Below, piece by piece: positions 17,723 through 32,438 of a DNA stretch of 64,000 bases. The notes beneath the pieces were generated by a model. It was not told where the DNA came from, made no database searches, and saw only the letters and a program-made list of their open reading frames with translations. Within the stretch, counting starts at the first letter, position 1. Each line of letters begins with the position of its first letter. Source of the stretch: Deltaproteobacteria bacterium (lineage in GTDB: Bacteria; Desulfobacterota; GWC2-55-46); contig JACOUO010000017.1 of assembly GCA_016177845.1 (NCBI GenBank), positions 1 through 64,000 on the forward strand, in the 5' to 3' direction. The position numbers and the translations under genes were made by a program.

Positions 17723-18970
17723 ATGGCTGACCAGACCATAATCTGCCCCAATTGCAATCATAAGATACCCCTTACTGAAGCGCTCTCGAATCAGATAAAG
17801 GATAACCTTAAAAAAGAGTTTGAGGCGCGGGCAAGGGAAAAAGAGCTTGAAATAAAGAGGCGCGAGGACGAGCTTGGAAAAAGGATGAGAGACCTTGATG
17901 CCTCAAGGCGCGGGATGGAAGATACTATCGCCCGTAAGCTCAATGTTGAAAAGGCCCGCATCCAGCATGAGGCGCAAAAGGCCGCAAAAGACCAGCTTGC
18001 GTTAGAGCTTAAAGACCTTCAGGAGCAGAACTCGGAGAAGGAAAGAAAGCTTGAGGACGCGAGGAGGGCAGAGCTTGAACTGAGGAAAAAGGCAAGGGAG
18101 CTTGAAGAGGAGAAGAAGAACCTTGACCTTGAACTTGCCAGAAAGCTCGATACCGAAAGGGAACGCATCAGGCAGACAACCCTTGAGATGTTCTCCGAGG
18201 AGCACAGGCTCAAGGACCTTGAAAAAGATAAAAAGATGAATGACATGCTCAAGACCATCGAGGAGCTTAAGAGAAAGGCTGAGCAGGGCTCCATGCAGAC
18301 GCAGGGGGAGGTGCTTGAGCTTGACCTTGAGGCTCTCTTGAAGGCGAAATTTCCGGTCGATGTCATAGAGCCTGTTGCTAAAGGAATAAGGGGCGCGGAC
18401 ATACTCCAGAAGGTAAATACCAGGACAGGGATTCCGTGCGGTTCTATAGCGTGGGAGTCCAAGCGCACAAAGGCATGGAATGACGAGTGGATTACGAAGC
18501 TCAAAGACGACCAGAGGGAGATAAAAGCGGAGATTGCCGTCCTTGTCACTGAAACGCTCCCCAAGGGTGTGGTTGCCTTTACTCAGATCGAAGGTGTCTG
18601 GGTCACGAGTGTTGCGCTTGCGGGGTCTTTGGCAGAAGCCCTGAGGGAGGGGCTTACTCAGGTTGCCCAGTCCAGGCTTTCGGCTGTCGGCAAGGGCGAG
18701 AAGATGGAAGCTATCTATAATTACCTTTCAGGCTCTGAGTTCAGGCAGAAGATAGAGGCGATAGTAGAGGCATTCAAATCAATGAAGGAAGACCTTGAGG
18801 CCGAGAAAAGGGCTATGCTGAGGATCTGGGCGAAACGGGAGAAGCAGATAGAAAGGGTAGTTACGAATACCCTCAGGATGTACGGAGATATGCAGGGCAT
18901 AATAACGCTTCCTGAGATAAAGATGCTTGAGCTTGGCTCAGGTGGTGAAGATATGGAAGAGCTGGAGTAA
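17723..18970 (+). CDS. DUF2130 family coiled-coil protein
   Basis: 415 residues. The N-terminal CPNCNHKIPL is a short zinc-ribbon-like start, and residues ~25-200 are a highly charged coiled coil. Residues ~210-400 form the DUF2130 domain (ADILQKVNTRTGIPCGSIAWESKRTK in pieces), which resembles restriction-endonuclease-like folds by its GSIAWESKRTKAW segment. Role unknown. ATG 17723 follows GAAGGTG and fits the domain start; the frame is open further upstream to 17594 without support. Confidence 0.85.
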   Translation: MADQTIICPNCNHKIPLTEALSNQIKDNLKKEFEARAREKELEIKRREDELGKRMRDLDASRRGMEDTIARKLNVEKARIQHEAQKAAKDQLALELKDLQEQNSEKERKLEDARRAELELRKKARELEEEKKNLDLELARKLDTERERIRQTTLEMFSEEHRLKDLEKDKKMNDMLKTIEELKRKAEQGSMQTQGEVLELDLEALLKAKFPVDVIEPVAKGIRGADILQKVNTRTGIPCGSIAWESKRTKAWNDEWITKLKDDQREIKAEIAVLVTETLPKGVVAFTQIEGVWVTSVALAGSLAEALREGLTQVAQSRLSAVGKGEKMEAIYNYLSGSEFRQKIEAIVEAFKSMKEDLEAEKRAMLRIWAKREKQIERVVTNTLRMYGDMQGIITLPEIKMLELGSGGEDMEELE

Positions 18971-23032: not shown

Positions 23033-24043
23033 ATGACTAAGGCTGTTGCACTACTTTCAGGGGGGCTTGACAGCACCCTGGCAGTTAAAATGATGATCGA
23101 ACAGGGGATAGAGGTGCATGCCCTTAATTTCACATCCTCATTCTGCACATGTAACTCAGGAGGGGCAAAGGAAGGCGGCTGCAGGAGCGAGTCCAAAAGG
23201 GTTGCCGATGAGTTCGGCATACCGATCAAGGTTGTGGTAAAGGGGCTTGATTATATCGAGATAGTCAGAAACCCGAAACACGGGTATGGCAAGGGTATAA
23301 ACCCTTGTGTGGACTGCCGTATCTTCATGTTCAGGCAGGCAAAAGAGTACATGAAGGAGATTGGCGCCTCTTTTATCATTACAGGAGAGGTCCTCGGACA
23401 GAGGCCTATGAGCCAGAGGAAAGAGGCTTTCCGCGTCATTGAACGGGAGTCCGGGCTTGAGGGGTTGATACTGCGCCCGTTGAGCGCGAAACAGCTTGAG
23501 CCGACAATCCCTGAGAAGGAAGGGCTTGTAGACCGTGAAAAGCTCCTTGATGTGCTTGGAAGGAGCAGGAAGCCCCAGATGGAACTGGCGGATGAGCTTG
23601 ATATAAACGACTACCCCTGCCCGTCAGGCGGATGCCTCCTTACCGATAAGATATTTTCAAAAAAGGTCAGGGATCTGCTCGTCAATAAGCAGGATGTCAC
23701 GAAAAAAGACCTTGTGCTGCTTAAGGCAGGCAGGCATTTCAGGTTCGAAGGCCTAAAGATAATCATCGGCAGGAATGAGTCGGACAATATAAAAGTCAAA
23801 AACCTCATCCAGCCGGGAGACACTTTGATAGAGGCTGTGGACTTCCCCGGCCCCGTTGCCCTTATTTGCGGCAATGCCACGGAAAAGGCGCGTGAGTTCG
23901 CAGGAAGCCTTGTAGTTAAGTACGCGCTTGAAAAAGCAGGTGAACACAGAAAATTCAGGGCAACGCATGATAATAACACCGAGGAGTTCGAGGTAGCAGA
24001 GCCTGCCTCCGAGGCAATGATAGAGGAGAGCAGGGTATGTTAA
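23033..24043 (+). CDS. PP-loop ATPase, ThiI/MnmA-like thiolation enzyme
   Basis: 336 residues. The ATP-pyrophosphatase loop SGGLDS is at 9-14. Cysteines fall in pairs or clusters: C38/C40, C50, C92/C95 (NPCVDCR) and C196/C201 (PCPSGGC), suggesting a persulfide or iron-sulfur site. The middle ITGEVLGQRPMSQ is shared with a family often annotated as tRNA thiouridylase or ThiI-like. AAGGAG precedes ATG 23033. It overlaps larE by 7 nt, which argues for a shared sulfur-transfer task, but the RNA or small-molecule target is not known. Confidence 0.82.
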   Translation: MTKAVALLSGGLDSTLAVKMMIEQGIEVHALNFTSSFCTCNSGGAKEGGCRSESKRVADEFGIPIKVVVKGLDYIEIVRNPKHGYGKGINPCVDCRIFMFRQAKEYMKEIGASFIITGEVLGQRPMSQRKEAFRVIERESGLEGLILRPLSAKQLEPTIPEKEGLVDREKLLDVLGRSRKPQMELADELDINDYPCPSGGCLLTDKIFSKKVRDLLVNKQDVTKKDLVLLKAGRHFRFEGLKIIIGRNESDNIKVKNLIQPGDTLIEAVDFPGPVALICGNATEKAREFAGSLVVKYALEKAGEHRKFRATHDNNTEEFEVAEPASEAMIEESRVC

Positions 24044-24939
24044 GCGGTTCAGGAAATATTCAGCCGGAGGCGGGCAGGAAGCCTGCCCTTGAATTCGACC
24101 TTGGAGGGGAGGCCGAAAGGTCTTGCGCTTTTTCCAAACTTGAGAAGTTGAGAGCCAATCTCAGGGAGATGGGCTCTTTGCTTGTAGCCTTCTCAGGCGG
24201 GGTGGATTCCACATTCCTGCTTAAGGTGGCGGTTGATACCCTTGGCGATAAGGCCGCCGCCCTTACTGCAACTTCACCGACATATCCTGAAAGGGAATTT
24301 AAAGAGGCGTGCAGGCTTGCCAGTGAGATAGGCGTAAAGCACATAATAGTAGAGTCAAACGAGCTGGAGATACCCAACTTCTCGGAAAATGACGAGAACA
24401 GGTGTTATTACTGCAAGAGCGAGCTGTTCCAGATTTCAATTAACCATGCCGCATTCATGGGTGTTACCAATGTGGCGGACGGTTCCAATGCCGACGACCT
24501 TAAAGACTACAGGCCCGGCAAAACAGCGGCATCTGAGCTTGGGGTAAGAAGCCCTTTGCAGGAAGCAGGGCTCACCAAGCAGGAGATAAGGATACTCAGC
24601 AAAGAGATGGGGCTTCCCACATGGAATAAACCGAGCTTTGCCTGTCTCTCATCAAGGTTTCCATACGGTACGAGCATCACCGAGGAAAGGCTTGATAAGG
24701 TAGCCAAGGGAGAAGACCTGCTCCATGAGCTTGGGGTCTCTCAGTTCAGGGTAAGATACCATGACGATATCGTAAGGATAGAGGTAGCTCCAATGCTGCT
24801 GCCTGTTTTCCTTGATAATGAGATGAGGGAGAAGGTGGTTGAAGGGTTTAAAAAAATAGGATTTACTTATGTGACGCTTGACCTTCAGGGCTACAGGACA
24901 GGCAGCATGAACGAGGCCTTGGATAAGAATAAAAAATAA
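24037..24939 (+). CDS. larE: ATP-dependent sulfur transferase LarE
   Basis: 300 residues. The PP-loop SGGVDS is at 53-58, and the family segment KPSFACLSSRFPYG is at 198-211. LarE installs sulfur on the pyridinium dicarboxylate precursor of the nickel-pincer cofactor. Three cysteines, C123 and C126 (CYYC) and C203 (ACLSSR), match the pattern of the iron-sulfur-using LarE type rather than the single sacrificial cysteine type; this is an inference from positions. No larB, larC or larA is in the window. The first ~30 residues are a weakly conserved extension. Confidence 0.9.
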   Translation: MLSGSGNIQPEAGRKPALEFDLGGEAERSCAFSKLEKLRANLREMGSLLVAFSGGVDSTFLLKVAVDTLGDKAAALTATSPTYPEREFKEACRLASEIGVKHIIVESNELEIPNFSENDENRCYYCKSELFQISINHAAFMGVTNVADGSNADDLKDYRPGKTAASELGVRSPLQEAGLTKQEIRILSKEMGLPTWNKPSFACLSSRFPYGTSITEERLDKVAKGEDLLHELGVSQFRVRYHDDIVRIEVAPMLLPVFLDNEMREKVVEGFKKIGFTYVTLDLQGYRTGSMNEALDKNKK

Positions 24940-24952
24940 AGATTGATTGCTG

Positions 24953-24994
24953 AAATTTAAAAAGGGAGCGAACATCCGCTCCCTTTTTAAATTT
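24953..24994. terminator. Strong bidirectional terminator
   Basis: A perfect 18-bp palindromic stem, AAATTTAAAAAGGGAGCG against CGCTCCCTTTTTAAATTT, with a 6-nt loop. It ends both the larE transcript and the convergent 917-residue protein gene. Confidence 0.95.
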
Positions 24995-25009: not shown

Positions 25010-27763
25010 TCAGAACGCTTCTCCTGATTCCAGTTTTTTTGCCTCGGTTATCCAATCCTGCATATGGTGCTTCAAAAGGAGCTTGAAAAATTCCCCTTCA
25101 GGGCTGAGCATCTCATAGACTATCATCGGGGTGGCAGCCTCAAAGCCCTTGAATATAACTTCACCGCTCTTGCAGAACGCCTCGATGTACTCGATGTTCT
25201 TAACCACCTCCACCCCGAAGTAAAACTCAAGCCGGGGCTGCGGGAAGAAAAATAATTCCTGAATCGACCGGTCAAGTTCTGCCACATCCACTGCCTTCTC
25301 GAAAAACCACTTCGTGCCTTTGTTCTCTTTTATGTAGGCGGCAAGGGCGTTGATGCTAAGGGCCTGCCCCTTGTTGTAGATATCCGTTGTAGAAGAGATG
25401 ACCCTTAAAGCGGAGAAGGCCTCTCCTGAGATTATCTTTTTAAGGTCATTGTAATATTCGTTTGCCATGAGCTGGGCCATTGCCTTGGCATTTGAAGGCT
25501 TTCTGTTGGATATCAATTTCTCGAAAGCGCTGTCAAGCTCAGGGGGGATTTTAATGGAGTATATCCTGTCTATATAGATATCAAACGGGTATGTTATCTT
25601 CTGTTTCTTTTTCTGCCTTTCATTCTCAAGAAGCACTTCAAGCTTTGCCCTGACCATGGAATTCCTGAATGTGCCTCTTGCGGCCTCGTTTATCTTCTCT
25701 CCTATGGAAACTTTTGCCAGCCCTGAAAATTCTCCCCTTGATTCGATGACCATTGTCTCGGCCTTTGAGCCGTAGGAGATGTATAGGCCTGCCTCAAGCT
25801 CGCCTTTGATAGCGGCCTCAAGCTCGTCCCTGTAGGTATTCTCAAGCCTGTGCTCTTCCTCGCCAAGGGCGACAAGTTTGCTTTCAACCCCGTGCTCATT
25901 GCGCTCGAGCATTTTATTGAGTGCTGCCCTTTTCTTTTTGAGGTCCTCTTTCCTTTCCTCAAAGCGTTTATGGACTTCCTCAAGGAACATCTCATTGTTC
26001 TGAGGGGGCAGTTTCATGAGGAGCTGTTCGCGGTAGCGCTGTATTATCTGCTGAATGTTTTTGGCAAGCATTACAAGGTAAGTGACACCGCCGGAAAATA
26101 TTGCGGCATCCCCGGGCAGGTTTGTAAGCCTAATGCCGCGCTCATCCGCGCCGACCCCTGTGCCTGCGCTGTACTGGCTTGCGGCCCTTAATATGGGCTT
26201 ATAGAAGTACTCCCTCATGAACTCGGCCATGGCTATTTCCTTGACCTTGAGGGTCTTTCTCGTGAAGTCTTTCATGTCGATGAAGAGCTGGCCCTCTTCC
26301 TCTATCTCAAGGGTCTTAAGCACCGGCCTGTCATCGGTCGAGAAGCGGTAGAGCCTGCCTCTGTTGTATTCCTCGATGAGCATATTCTGGTTGAACTCAT
26401 CGCGCCTGTCTATGAGGTAGCCCCTCATCAGGCTCTCGTATCTTTCCGCAAGGTCATCGAGCCTACAGGCGTAATACCCGTCGACAATGGGCACAAGCGC
26501 CTCAAAAGCCTCGCGCCTTGAGCTTTTGAATATGCCGTCGAGCATCGATTTTTTGAATGAAGAGAGGAAACGCTGGAAAGATGAGATTATCTCGACCCTT
26601 CTTGAGTCCTTCGCGAACTTCTCTTTTATGTCCTCAAGCCCTACGATGAGTTTTCCGGTCATCTTCTGGTCAATGAGGAAGTTCCTTATGAGACGGTCCT
26701 CATTGTATATCTCGTAGATTATCTCCTGAGATTCATTGCCGGGAAAATCAAATTCCGCGAGATAATTTATGGCCTCTTCCCTGAACCTTATTATCTCGTA
26801 TTGCTGCCTGATGGACTCAAGTGCCTCGGAAGTGCCTTTTATGTTATCGATGGTCTCTTTTGCAAGCTCGCCTATATCAGAGAGATTGTCGTGAAAATCA
26901 GGCGAATATTTTGAGATCACTTCAAGTATCTCATTGTTGATGCCGTAAGGGTTTAGCGCAACCGAAAGCAGGTTGGACTGGATGGAGATAAAGGATTTGG
27001 GAACGACAGATGATAAGAGCAGTGTTTCGGTTGAAGGATTATAGCAGGAGGCCTTTGCGTCCCTAAGCCTCTCAAGAGTGTCCTTGAGCGCGCCTTTGAA
27101 CGCGAAGAACAAAACCATGCCCACGACAAGGTCGACCTTTTCGTAAGAGAGCCCCCTGACCCGGTAGCCTTTGATGAGCTCTTTCTTTTTGCAAATGGTA
27201 TTTATGACAGCAAGGAGGGCGAGGTAAGAGGTTCTTTCATCTCCGCCGTGCTTTGCCTCATCCCGGATAGTTTTTTCGACCAGCTCGCTCACCCATCTGA
27301 TAAAGGCCTTGCCCTTGCCCTCCGTAAACCAGCTGAATATGATAGAGCTGTCCACATAAGGGGTTGAGGAAAGTATCTCAGAGGCTAACTTTTTTTCGAG
27401 AGTTTCCGATATGAATATATCTGTCCTGAAGGTCTTTTCTTTCAGGGATTTAATCGGTACGGGAAGGGGCTGGGCATCTTTACGGCCTTCAGCGTTGGAC
27501 GGCTCGTATCTTCTTATCAGGATGGAAAGAAGGCCTAAAATGGCTTTTTCTATGCAGGCCTCATCCTCTGCCCCCATATGGAAAGGCACTTTAAGCTCGG
27601 CAATGGATTCGCCATGCTTAAACCTGAGGCTCTTGGGCTCAAGGGTCCAAACCTTACCGTTGAAGATGTCCAGACGTTTTTTGAGGAGTGAATTGAAAAG
27701 ATCAATCCGCCCTCTTGAGTAGCCCTCTAACATAGAATCCCAGAATTTGCGAGATACAGCCAT
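25010..27763 (-). CDS. Large protein with a split class III nucleotide cyclase-like domain
   Basis: 917 residues, mostly helical, no membrane helix. I read a class III cyclase homology domain at ~490-715. LFIDMKDFT (metal D496) matches the first metal-binding strand, LPGDAAIFSG (D552) the second. After ~100 residues, including a charged coiled coil at ~590-655, come AGLYISYGSKAE and IGEKINEAARG (N692 and R696, spaced four as in catalytic Asn/Arg of cyclases). The base-selecting positions (Lys and Asp in adenylate cyclases) are N548 and V685 here, so substrate or activity is uncertain. Flanking regions 1-485 and 720-917 match nothing I know. It is monocistronic between a strong terminator and a promoter-bearing gap. 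Confidence 0.7.
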   Translation of the reverse strand: MAVSRKFWDSMLEGYSRGRIDLFNSLLKKRLDIFNGKVWTLEPKSLRFKHGESIAELKVPFHMGAEDEACIEKAILGLLSILIRRYEPSNAEGRKDAQPLPVPIKSLKEKTFRTDIFISETLEKKLASEILSSTPYVDSSIIFSWFTEGKGKAFIRWVSELVEKTIRDEAKHGGDERTSYLALLAVINTICKKKELIKGYRVRGLSYEKVDLVVGMVLFFAFKGALKDTLERLRDAKASCYNPSTETLLLSSVVPKSFISIQSNLLSVALNPYGINNEILEVISKYSPDFHDNLSDIGELAKETIDNIKGTSEALESIRQQYEIIRFREEAINYLAEFDFPGNESQEIIYEIYNEDRLIRNFLIDQKMTGKLIVGLEDIKEKFAKDSRRVEIISSFQRFLSSFKKSMLDGIFKSSRREAFEALVPIVDGYYACRLDDLAERYESLMRGYLIDRRDEFNQNMLIEEYNRGRLYRFSTDDRPVLKTLEIEEEGQLFIDMKDFTRKTLKVKEIAMAEFMREYFYKPILRAASQYSAGTGVGADERGIRLTNLPGDAAIFSGGVTYLVMLAKNIQQIIQRYREQLLMKLPPQNNEMFLEEVHKRFEERKEDLKKKRAALNKMLERNEHGVESKLVALGEEEHRLENTYRDELEAAIKGELEAGLYISYGSKAETMVIESRGEFSGLAKVSIGEKINEAARGTFRNSMVRAKLEVLLENERQKKKQKITYPFDIYIDRIYSIKIPPELDSAFEKLISNRKPSNAKAMAQLMANEYYNDLKKIISGEAFSALRVISSTTDIYNKGQALSINALAAYIKENKGTKWFFEKAVDVAELDRSIQELFFFPQPRLEFYFGVEVVKNIEYIEAFCKSGEVIFKGFEAATPMIVYEMLSPEGEFFKLLLKHHMQDWITEAKKLESGEAF

Positions 27764-27866
27764 TGTCTTTAACTATTCCATTCAGCTTATAATAAACAGG
27801 TTTTTAAATCAAGCGCATCAAGGATAAACCTTGTAAGACGCGTTCTAAATAAGTTAAAATACCGTG

Positions 27867-28030
27867 TATTCTGTAGGGAAACCCCTTCGAAAAGGGCTGA
27901 GACAGAAAATATGAAGGGGCTGCCCGGCTTTGGGACTGGTAAGGTCATTCGCAACCATTTTGCCACCCGGATTTACATTAACGCTCTTTGCTGATTTTCC
28001 GCTGTGAGTTCGGTCACAGAGCTTTTGGTC
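27867..28030 (+). ncRNA. Candidate structured RNA or 5' leader of the GT2 gene
   Basis: The 323-bp gap 27764-28086 holds no gene. A promoter-like pair TTGTAA (27831-27836) and TAAAAT (27855-27860), 18 nt apart, would start RNA near 27867. From there TTCTGT (27869-27874) pairs with ACAGAA (27902-27907) around an inner hairpin CCCTT-CGAA-AAGGG (27883-27896). A GC-rich stretch follows, and CTGTGA/TCACAG (28002-28019) with a trailing CTTTT could end it. This could be a small RNA or a leader regulating the glycosyltransferase at 28087. It matches no RNA family I can name. Confidence 0.35.
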
Positions 28031-28846: not shown

Positions 28847-30619
28847 ATGGACTCTGGGAAAAAGGGCTTAGGCAGTACGGCTGTTTATTTGATTCTGATA
28901 ATCCTCGTATCTTTCGGGGTATATTCAAATACCCTTGGGAACGGCTTTGTCTATGACGACCATTTCCAGATAGAGAATAACCCCTGGATAAAAGACCTTA
29001 GCCATTTCCGTGACATATTCACCTCTCATGTTTACGGCTTTAAGAAAGAGCTCAACACCACCAATTCGTACCGTCCTCTGCTGTTAGTCTATTATGCGTT
29101 TGAATACGCCATGTTTGGCCTCAAGCCCTGGGGCTGGCACTTCGTAAACATAATATTGCATACGCTGAACAGCCTCCTTGTATTCTTTATCGCCTCCCGC
29201 ATCATAAGTAAAAACGGAGGGGAGGGGAGGGTGTATAATTTTGCGCCATTCTTTGCCGCTGTTATCTTTGCTGCGCACCCGGTGCACAGCGAGGCAATCG
29301 CATGGGTAGGCTGCGTGACGGAGCTTTCATATACATTCTTTTATTTATCCGCTTTCTATCTTTTCATAAGCTGTAATGGAATTGGCGTTCTGGCAGCAGC
29401 CGCATTTTTCTTCCTGCTTGCGCTCTTGAGCAAGGAGACGGCGATTACTTTGCCTCTTGTGCTGTTAGCCTATGATTTATTCTCAGGCGAGCGCAGGTTC
29501 AGGATTGGTGAGCTTATCAAAAGGTATGCGCCTTTTACGGTGAGCCTATTCGTCTATATCGCCTTGCGGCTGACCGCGCTCAAAGGGGTGCTGCCGAATC
29601 AGGGCCTCCACACTTACCTTGATCAGACAAAGGTTTTAATCAACTCTGCCGTATTTTTGGCAGAGTACATAAAGGCAATAGTTCTGCCGATAAAATTCTA
29701 TCCGTTCAATCTTTTCAATCCTGTTTATTCCATCGCGGAACCAAAGGCAATCCTTTCCGTTGTTTTTCTCATATTGGTTGCAATCGGCATCGCTGCCCTT
29801 TGGCTCTATAGAAAGAGGGTCAACCCGTTCTATCTGGTTTTTGCAGTACTTTTTTTAATAACAATGCTTCCGGCTCTCTACATACCGGGTTTAAGCCGCC
29901 ATGCCTTTGCTGACAGGCAGGCCTACCTGCCTTCGGTGTGGCTTATACTGATTGTCTCGCTTCTTGTAGATAAGGCAGGGAAAGGCAGGAATGCGGTCAA
30001 GGCTGTCTCAGCCGTTCTTATCTTAATAACAGCTCTGTATTCTTTCGAGACCATAAGGCGTAACTCAGCATGGAAGAACGACCTTACGATATGGCAGGCC
30101 TCGGCAGAAGCGGCTGAGGCAAACTATCTTGCCTATCTCAATATCGGCATTGAATATTCGATTGTAGGCAGGCCGGACGATGCTATTGCTTTTTACAAAA
30201 AATCTCTTGATGCGAATTTAAAGCGGCGCGACCCTGATAAGCCTAAGGTAGTGGTAACGCATATGAATATCGCCAAGGCATACCGCAGTAAGAATGACCT
30301 TGAAGGGGCGAGAATTGAGTTTAAGGAGGCTCTTAAAGCAGAGCCTGCCAATCTTGGCGCGCTGCTTGGGCTGGCTTCCGTCTCTGAGGAGATGGGGCTT
30401 TTTGATGAAGCCGTCTCTATCTACAGGCAAGGGCTTAACTTCGCACAGGACCCGCAGGCGATAAAGGATATCAATAACGCAATAGGGAACTCCTATGCGA
30501 ACAGAGGCATGTTCAGTGAAGCCCTGGCCAGTTATGCGGATGCCCTTAAAATATCTCCGAACGATGAAGTGATACTTTCAAATATGGCTCAGGTCAGAAG
30601 CCTCGTAGGCAAGAGGTGA
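28847..30619 (+). CDS. TMTC-like GT-C membrane protein with C-terminal TPRs (copy 1)
   Basis: 590 residues. Residues ~10-410 have about ten to eleven membrane helices. The first periplasmic loop has VYDD (D37, D38), matching the acidic catalytic pair of GT-C enzymes, and LSKETAITLP matches the conserved KE segment of TMTC proteins; residues ~430-590 are TPR repeats. Eukaryotic TMTC1-4 with this layout are protein O-mannosyltransferases. With the GT2 gene just upstream, a protein O-glycosylation role is likely but inferred. Confidence 0.85.
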   Translation: MDSGKKGLGSTAVYLILIILVSFGVYSNTLGNGFVYDDHFQIENNPWIKDLSHFRDIFTSHVYGFKKELNTTNSYRPLLLVYYAFEYAMFGLKPWGWHFVNIILHTLNSLLVFFIASRIISKNGGEGRVYNFAPFFAAVIFAAHPVHSEAIAWVGCVTELSYTFFYLSAFYLFISCNGIGVLAAAAFFFLLALLSKETAITLPLVLLAYDLFSGERRFRIGELIKRYAPFTVSLFVYIALRLTALKGVLPNQGLHTYLDQTKVLINSAVFLAEYIKAIVLPIKFYPFNLFNPVYSIAEPKAILSVVFLILVAIGIAALWLYRKRVNPFYLVFAVLFLITMLPALYIPGLSRHAFADRQAYLPSVWLILIVSLLVDKAGKGRNAVKAVSAVLILITALYSFETIRRNSAWKNDLTIWQASAEAAEANYLAYLNIGIEYSIVGRPDDAIAFYKKSLDANLKRRDPDKPKVVVTHMNIAKAYRSKNDLEGARIEFKEALKAEPANLGALLGLASVSEEMGLFDEAVSIYRQGLNFAQDPQAIKDINNAIGNSYANRGMFSEALASYADALKISPNDEVILSNMAQVRSLVGKR

Positions 30620-30662: not shown

Positions 30663-32438
30663 ATGAACAGAAGAGCATTAAATGTCTATACGATCATCTC
30701 AATAGCCGCACTTGTCGCCCTTTCCTTTATCATCTATCATAAGGCGCTTTCATTCGGCTTCGTATATGACGACAATGAACAGGTATTGAGGAACAGGTGG
30801 ATAACTTCGGCCTCGTTCCTGCCTGATATTTTCAGGTCGCATACCTTCGGGTTCTCTGAGGACAGTTATCAGGCTTTGACATACAGGCCTGTCTTCATTG
30901 CCATATATCTTTTCGAATACGCCATCTTCGGCCTGAATGCCTGGGGGTGGCATCTGGTCAATATCCTTCTCCATGCGGCAAATTCCATTGCCGTATTTTT
31001 TACTGTCGCATTCCTGCTTGAAAGGCATGAGCCCGCTTCAAAAGAAACACCCGTGACCCTGTATCTGCCGGCATTTGCCGCAGCTGCCCTGTTTGCCTCA
31101 TTCCCTGTAAATACCGAGGTCGTTTCATGGGTGGGCTGTATCCCTGAGCTGATGTACACGCTCCTTTGCCTGAGCGCATTTTATATGTATATGGCCTCAA
31201 GAGAGAACGGTAAATTGCTCTATATCTTAAGGCTGGCCTCGGTTGTTTTGTATTTTGTAGCAATGCTTGTCAAGGAAACGGCGATTATACTGCCTGCTTT
31301 GCTTTTTATCTATGATTGCATCAAGTACAGAGGCGAGAGGATTATCAGCCTTGCAAAGATTAAAAGGTACATTCCTTATGCAGTAACCGCCGCAGCATAT
31401 ATGGCAATAAGGATAGCGGTGCTCGGCAATATGGCGCCCCCCGAAAAGCTCCATACAAACCTTACAGGCTTTCAGTATCTCATAAACGCGTTCCCCATGA
31501 TACTCAGGTATCTGAGGGAACTTGTGCTGCCCATTGAATATCCTCTCCAGCGTTTCAGCCCCTATTTTTCAATGGCTGAGCCTGTTGTGGTCATCTCTGT
31601 TCTGGTTGTGCTTTCAATCCCCGTGCTTGTCTTTCTGTTCAGGAAGAGGATAAAGCCTGTGTATCTTCTGGCTCTATTTTTCTTTATACCGCTTCTCCCT
31701 GCTTTGTATTCGCCGGGCGTAAGCCGCACCCCTTTTGCCGACAGGTATCTCTATTCGCCATCTATTGGGCTTGCCCTTTTCGTGGCGATTATATTAAAGA
31801 TTGCCATAAGCAGGAAGACTGCGCTGAAAGCGGCTGTTGCGGCATTTGCGGTAATCCTTGCGGCCAATTCCGCATGGGCCTGCAAAAAGAGCCTTATCTG
31901 GAAAGACGACCTTACGCTCTGGAATTATGCGGCCAAGGGCGCGCCTGATAATTACATAGCCCTTTATTCCATCGGGTACGCTCATTATAAAGAGGGCAGG
32001 GTAGACGAAGCGATCCCGATGTTTGAGAAGGCGCTCAACTTAAATCTTGCGAGCGAGCAACCTGACCCAACTATGCTTTTGATTATGCATCGGGCGCTTG
32101 CCGGGACTTACCTTAAAAAGGGTTTGCTTGAAAACGCGGCCCGGGAGTATAATGAACTGCTCAGGCTTGCCCCTGAGGATTTTGTGGCATCTTATAATCT
32201 GGCAACCATCTACAGGCAGAAGGGGCTCTTAAATGAGGCAGTAGAGCTTTACAGGACAGCGCTTCTTTTCGCCAAAGAGCCTTTTATGCTCAGAGACATC
32301 CATTACAATATGGGGCAGTCCTATATGGGCCTTGGGAGGAGGGCTGAAGCAGCTGCAAGTTTCGAGAAAGCCCTTGAACTTTCTCCTGATGACCCCATGA
32401 TCTTAAACAGCCTTAGAGAGGCAAACCCCGCACAGTAG
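30663..32438 (+). CDS. TMTC-like GT-C membrane protein with C-terminal TPRs (copy 2)
   Basis: 591 residues, a paralogue of the preceding gene in tandem. It has the same order: VYDD in the first loop (D36, D37), WGWHLVNILLHAANS, MLVKETAIILP, PGVSRTPFADRYLYSPS, then TPRs from ~430. The two differ widely in sequence, so duplication is old and acceptor targets may differ. It begins 43 nt after copy 1. Confidence 0.85.
   Translation: MNRRALNVYTIISIAALVALSFIIYHKALSFGFVYDDNEQVLRNRWITSASFLPDIFRSHTFGFSEDSYQALTYRPVFIAIYLFEYAIFGLNAWGWHLVNILLHAANSIAVFFTVAFLLERHEPASKETPVTLYLPAFAAAALFASFPVNTEVVSWVGCIPELMYTLLCLSAFYMYMASRENGKLLYILRLASVVLYFVAMLVKETAIILPALLFIYDCIKYRGERIISLAKIKRYIPYAVTAAAYMAIRIAVLGNMAPPEKLHTNLTGFQYLINAFPMILRYLRELVLPIEYPLQRFSPYFSMAEPVVVISVLVVLSIPVLVFLFRKRIKPVYLLALFFFIPLLPALYSPGVSRTPFADRYLYSPSIGLALFVAIILKIAISRKTALKAAVAAFAVILAANSAWACKKSLIWKDDLTLWNYAAKGAPDNYIALYSIGYAHYKEGRVDEAIPMFEKALNLNLASEQPDPTMLLIMHRALAGTYLKKGLLENAAREYNELLRLAPEDFVASYNLATIYRQKGLLNEAVELYRTALLFAKEPFMLRDIHYNMGQSYMGLGRRAEAAASFEKALELSPDDPMILNSLREANPAQ

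Follow-up and report, generated by a model that had tools for sequence, protein, structure and literature searches.

Is the 917-codon open reading frame on the minus strand at 25010..27763 of the stretch analysed here (64,000 nucleotides from a Deltaproteobacteria bacterium, hereafter the window) a class III nucleotide cyclase, and if so, does its product still work as an enzyme? From a structural model and the residues preserved among its relatives, we consider it probable that the protein is an active homodimeric class III nucleotidyl cyclase, belonging to a divergent, unrecognised subfamily with an unusual base pocket.

Gene and transcription unit

The frame, taken from the list of open reading frames, is present as the preliminary description gave it, with one correction at its start. 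The N-termini of the homologues align to Met11, so codon 11 (at 27733) is the probable start and the product would have 907 aa. As far as can be read, the gene is the sole member of its own transcription unit, with a divergent glycosyltransferase gene upstream and a convergent larE downstream. Between the 3' ends of the cyclase gene and larE, a near-perfect inverted repeat with A/T-run flanks was read directly (24953..24994, no strand); judging from its make-up, it is a bidirectional terminator common to both genes. Several short inverted repeats (gggaaacccc, ccccttc/gaagggg) are found at 27850-27960, in the intergenic stretch that separates the cyclase gene from this glycosyltransferase gene, and matched no Rfam family. 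The Rfam search of the whole 64-kb window found rRNA only, with no riboswitch upstream of the cyclase gene. At 1-729 a 23S rRNA gene ends (3' part only) and the 5S rRNA follows.

Fold and extent of the cyclase domain

An AlphaFold2 model of the full chain was built with 39 natural sequences and compared with known structures. Class III cyclases headed the match list of Foldseek, and all the matches listed by a structural aligner (VIA) were class III cyclases, with Z of 14.2-15.9. The best of these was the soluble guanylate cyclase sGC (Z 15.9, 177 residues aligned, rmsd 2.9 A), and the alignment with Rv1900c takes in 162 of its 167 residues. The topology is also class III-like: D496 closes beta1, D552 lies in the turn joining beta2 to beta3, and alpha4 carries N692/R696. 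The preliminary description had proposed a class III fold split by a helical insertion, to be checked by structure prediction; the model and the fold search bear this out, and the ferredoxin-like cyclase core is present.

The domain had been drawn too short, as residues 480-720. In the model the structural alignment runs from 487 to about 889, so the cyclase domain is longer and contains a second insertion. Its core, delimited by model and fold match, is in three parts, all on the minus strand: residues 487-584, from beta1 to alpha3 (26012..26305); residues 659-697, with beta4, beta5 and alpha4 (25673..25789); and residues 787-889 (25097..25405), assigned by fold alignment and conservation. 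In this last part, GQALS/GEAMS corresponds to GDILVS of canonical cyclases and KGFE-x3-P-x3-YE (KG-x5-P-x3-YE) to their VKGK-x2-P-x2-(I/V)Y. The statement that the rest of the protein matches nothing was therefore mistaken for residues 720-889, which are cyclase and carry the class III C-terminal signature; it holds for residues 1-485, which have no known fold here.

The sequence itself is far less eloquent. Pfam, NCBIfam and PDB-sequence searches with the family gave no match, and PF00211 (Guanylate_cyc) matched none of 32 members plus five distant ones; in the window's own genome it hit three other places, all canonical class III cyclases, and the gene at 25010-27763 was not among them. Profile-profile comparison of the excised core with canonical cyclases scored 25.0 (30 column shuffles reached at most 20.1), and with another column set it did not beat its own best shuffle. 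This similarity is weak, yet the register is right at both metal Asp. Sequence similarity is thus below profile detection, and the class III assignment rests on the predicted structure and the invariant residues. The weak profile similarity and the missing database matches count against an active cyclase, and the marginal score and the lack of any family HMM match are what one would expect of a chance resemblance, i.e., a helical protein with motif look-alikes. We regard that explanation as hardly credible and strongly disfavoured: the structural matches (Z about 14-16) span 158-181 residues in nearly all listed rows, against dozens of class III structures, and conservation is centred on the catalytic residues. 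The class III cyclases would thereby gain a family that escapes current profile libraries.

Conservation of the catalytic residues

Residues were counted in a 61-sequence alignment of homologues reaching down to about 27% identity, and the catalytic ones were placed in the model by secondary structure and motif register. The three motifs FIDMKDFT (D496), GDAAIFSG (D552) and IGEKINEAAR (N692, R696) are all at the residues originally named. The first metal-binding Asp, D496 (26276..26278, minus strand), is the last residue of strand 489-496 and is kept in 61/61 sequences, and the second, D552 (26108..26110, minus), in 60/60 with one gap. The transition-state residues on alpha4 (25676..25690, minus), four apart on the predicted helix 689-697, are hardly less constant, with N692 in 60/60 and R696 in 59/60 (one Lys); R700 is likewise kept in 60/60 aligned homologues. 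The claim that the metal Asp and the transition-state Asn/Arg are retained, for which a survey of homologues had been suggested, thus stands, and no loss of D496 or D552 was found.

Over the protein as a whole, conservation is highest at 461-520, 541-560 and 681-700, stretches that coincide with these motifs and with the junction before the cyclase core, EYNRGRLYRFSTDD (residues 465-478, 26330..26371, minus), where G469, Y472, R473 and D477 are each at least 97% conserved. In distant members the first motif becomes FMDLRGFT, near the canonical FADIRGFT of cyclases in related genomes. Toward the C terminus, conservation identifies KGFEAATPMIVYE (25112..25150, minus) as the class III beta7-beta8 signature with K872 as the probable phosphate Lys: by motif register this position is K in 46/59 and R in 8/59, G873 is kept in 58/59 and E884 in 59/59. 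Four members of family f26 (L094-L097), those with the longest hairpin (see below), lack the KGFE motif and the K872 equivalent, with YAGT, YVGT or YTGT instead. These same members have GS in place of KE after the first motif. Judging from these substitutions, they may differ in activity from the others.

Conservation of the motifs is, from the alignment, far beyond chance, and the invariance of the catalytic residues argues for catalysis. The active-cyclase reading draws its support from this invariance across about 27% identity, from the class III fold matches and residue placement and from the near-canonical first motif of the distant members.

The base-selecting pocket and the proposed activity

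Adenylyl cyclases select their base with Lys plus Asp or Thr, and guanylyl cyclases with Glu plus Cys, Ser or others (PMC7384201, PMC4215837). The register of these positions in the family (four residues before D552 and seven before N692) matches that of the canonical cyclases of related genomes (DKFIGD and T/A-x6-N). N548 (26120..26122, minus), at the place of the Lys/Glu, is Asn in 53 and Ser in 7 homologues, and V685 (25709..25711, minus), at the place of the Asp/Thr/Cys, is Val in 60/60, so the preliminary description was right that N548 and V685 stand in place of Lys and Asp. We looked within the family for the adenylyl-type pair (Lys plus Asp/Thr) and for the guanylyl-type pair (Glu plus Cys/Ser/Gly), and both were absent, Asn/Ser plus Val being found instead. 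The protein is therefore filed as class III, and as neither an adenylyl nor a guanylyl cyclase. By prior, ATP is perhaps the most likely nucleotide. A pocket that breaks the Lys/Asp versus Glu/Cys rule makes the family useful for testing how the nucleotide is selected in cyclases.

The absence of the usual base-selecting residues, and of the K872 equivalent in the four f26 members, weighs against an active cyclase. Both would suit a class III domain without catalytic activity, one that switches the helical front half in response to a bound ligand (a nucleotide or cyclic nucleotide); so would the three canonical cyclases already encoded in the genome. Pure nucleotide binders, however, usually lose the metal Asp and the transition-state Asn/Arg, and here these persist in essentially all of some 60 divergent homologues, which makes a dead domain unlikely. 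The non-standard pocket could also indicate another chemistry on the class III metal site, e.g., that of a dinucleotide synthase or a nucleotidyltransferase, given that related palm-type folds (GGDEF, Cas10) share the metal geometry of class III cyclases. We find this very unlikely, because alpha4 has N692/R696, the C-terminal part has the class III beta7-beta8 KG...YE, and all the VIA matches listed are class III cyclases.

Under the preferred reading, that of an active cyclase, the gene product would be a soluble, multidomain class III nucleotidyl cyclase. Its chains would form head-to-tail dimers, the arrangement of other class III cyclases, each active site combining the metal Asp of one chain with the Asn/Arg/Lys of the other, and an NTP would be cyclised to a 3',5'-cyclic nucleotide. 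A helical sensor half would be coupled to the cyclase through the conserved EYxRGRLYRFS junction, a hairpin in the alpha3-beta4 loop would serve as a regulatory or partner-binding arm, and the cyclic nucleotide may be read by CRP-type proteins of the same genome.

Two insertions in the cyclase domain

The first insertion, a helical hairpin in the alpha3-beta4 loop of the AF2 model (residues 594-653, 25805..25984, minus), has helices at 594-620 and 626-653. A coiled coil had been proposed between the second and third motifs; the helices are there in the model, and heptad periodicity is significant for the first (p 0.015) and not for the second (p 0.21). Measured between G558 and G659, the spacing in aligned members falls into classes of 40-48, 67, 79, 90-100 and 200-201 residues. 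It is 98-100 in nearly all members from the window's class, 67-91 in four members, 200-201 in two other families and 40-48 in another four. This last spacing is about canonical and leaves no room for the hairpin, and its bearers keep all catalytic residues, which again supports the active-cyclase reading.

Seven changes are needed to place the four hairpin-length classes on a 56-member tree, and the sisters L040 (spacing 98) and L045 (44) differ by the hairpin. From these sequences, its length has changed at least seven times, as expected of an add-on gained, lost or resized. Since this happened repeatedly and close relatives do without it, the hairpin would not be part of catalysis. Most likely, by analogy, it is a regulatory or partner-binding (docking) arm, since it sits at a known regulatory site: the alpha3-beta4 loop has been termed a regulatory region in mammalian cyclases (PMC6027212). 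Hairpins of about 0, 60 and 160 residues occur naturally among relatives, which provides a way to test the role of this loop.

The second insertion (residues ~702-786, 25406..25660, minus), deduced from spacing and model, lies between alpha4 and the core strand that follows it: R696 and G799 are 103 residues apart, versus about 9 in canonical cyclases. It is found in all full-length aligned homologues, with part missing in L045, the hairpin-free homologue mentioned above.

The N-terminal half

Residues 14-485 (26309..27724, minus) form an all-helical domain, predicted with a pLDDT of 89.7 and a pTM of 0.91 when this half was folded alone with AF2. Among the matches listed against the PDB, the best had a Z of 7.3 over 88 residues and was tied with unrelated helical proteins, and viral structure models gave no assignable match. 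From the model, this 485-residue front half is presumably the sensor or regulatory part, and it may represent a new sensor fold.

Distribution and genomic context

A homologue is present in 50 of 59 related genomes (37/42 of the good-quality ones and 33/37 genera), as a single copy per genome where contigs are whole and with 31-66% identity. Across the phylum, it was found in 29 of 395 evenly sampled genomes, some of them from families that do not belong to the window's class. Scanning species genomes with motifs taken from that class gave 45 loci, all in MAGs and nearly all titled 'Deltaproteobacteria bacterium'; given this choice of motifs, the family may be more widely spread. Viral contigs and plasmids searched for the homologue yielded none. 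The gene is thus near-universal in one class of uncultured bacteria and occurs in several families of one phylum, and its near-universality makes it probably central to the physiology of that class.

The three canonical cyclases and six cNMP-binding-domain matches in the window's genome indicate that cyclic-nucleotide signalling probably exists in this organism, and the six matches favour an active cyclase here. That three canonical enzymes are already present counts against it, since the family's cyclase must then do something that they leave uncovered. A more specific proposal, that of a near-universal, chromosomal, non-defence cyclase making a non-purine or otherwise non-standard cNMP, with a new helical sensor fold and gating by a lineage-specific coiled-coil arm, strikes us as distinctly unlikely in its entirety.

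Genes of nickel-pincer cofactor biosynthesis (Lar) recur as neighbours of the cyclase gene across families of the phylum. About half of the related loci have convergent larE (24037-24939 in the window), as does the distant L098; larE is divergent in L101, and larB is divergent in L099, L104 and L105. No Lar gene shared a transcription unit with the cyclase gene, and other families have purQ, an A-adding tRNA nucleotidyltransferase, MTAP or a radical SAM gene as neighbours. LarB was above the cut-off in 337/395 genomes of the phylum, i.e., almost everywhere, so its co-occurrence with the cyclase gene carries no information. Given separate transcription units, varying neighbours and this near-ubiquity, we rejected a functional link to Lar and retain the recurrence as a lead only.

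Elsewhere in the window, a fusion of a ThiI-like PP-loop protein with an NFACT-R_2 RNA-binding domain (23033-24043) overlaps larE by a few bases and stays beside it in related genomes, and a DUF2130 protein with a long coiled coil is encoded at 17723-18970. Two similar membrane proteins lie in tandem (28847-30619 and 30663-32438), each combining a glycosyltransferase-like hydrophobic half with TPR-like repeats at the C terminus; this family is duplicated in many related loci.

Comparison with known systems

With the class III cyclases of PF00211 (CyaC, Cya2, Rv1900c, CyaB, soluble guanylate cyclase) the family shares the whole-domain fold, the metal Asp, the transition-state Asn/Arg and the beta7-beta8 KG...YE signature. 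It differs from them in being below PF00211 detection, in the Asn/Ser plus Val at the base sites, in its two insertions and in an N-terminal helical domain of about 485 residues without a convincing PDB match.

Non-standard base-selecting residues are also found in the class III cyclases PycC of Pycsar, where they can select pyrimidines (PMC11224242). Unlike the PycC defence gene pairs, our gene has no adjacent effector, its neighbours being larE and a glycosyltransferase, and a PADLOC search found no defence family at the locus. The DUF2652 cyclase-like proteins (PMC4886424) are also divergent, class III-like, outside PF00211 and recognised by fold and catalytic residues, and one family member gave a sub-threshold DUF2652 match (E 0.013). 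Those proteins are single-domain, of about 250 aa, with Lys-Glu or Glu-Lys/Arg as base-selecting residues, and their mycobacterial members lack the transition-state Asn (PMC4886424), whereas the proteins described here are multidomain, have Asn/Ser plus Val and retain the Asn.

The closest parallel to the hairpin is in the trypanosome receptor adenylate cyclases, whose Delta-subdomain, a 36-residue two-helix insertion thought to be allosteric, occupies the same alpha3-beta4 loop (PMC6027212), the two insertions being likened by site alone. The hairpin of the family is longer (about 56 or 156 residues beyond hairpin-free members) and variable among lineages, and it belongs to a soluble bacterial protein that, in contrast to the trypanosome enzymes, has no transmembrane receptor.
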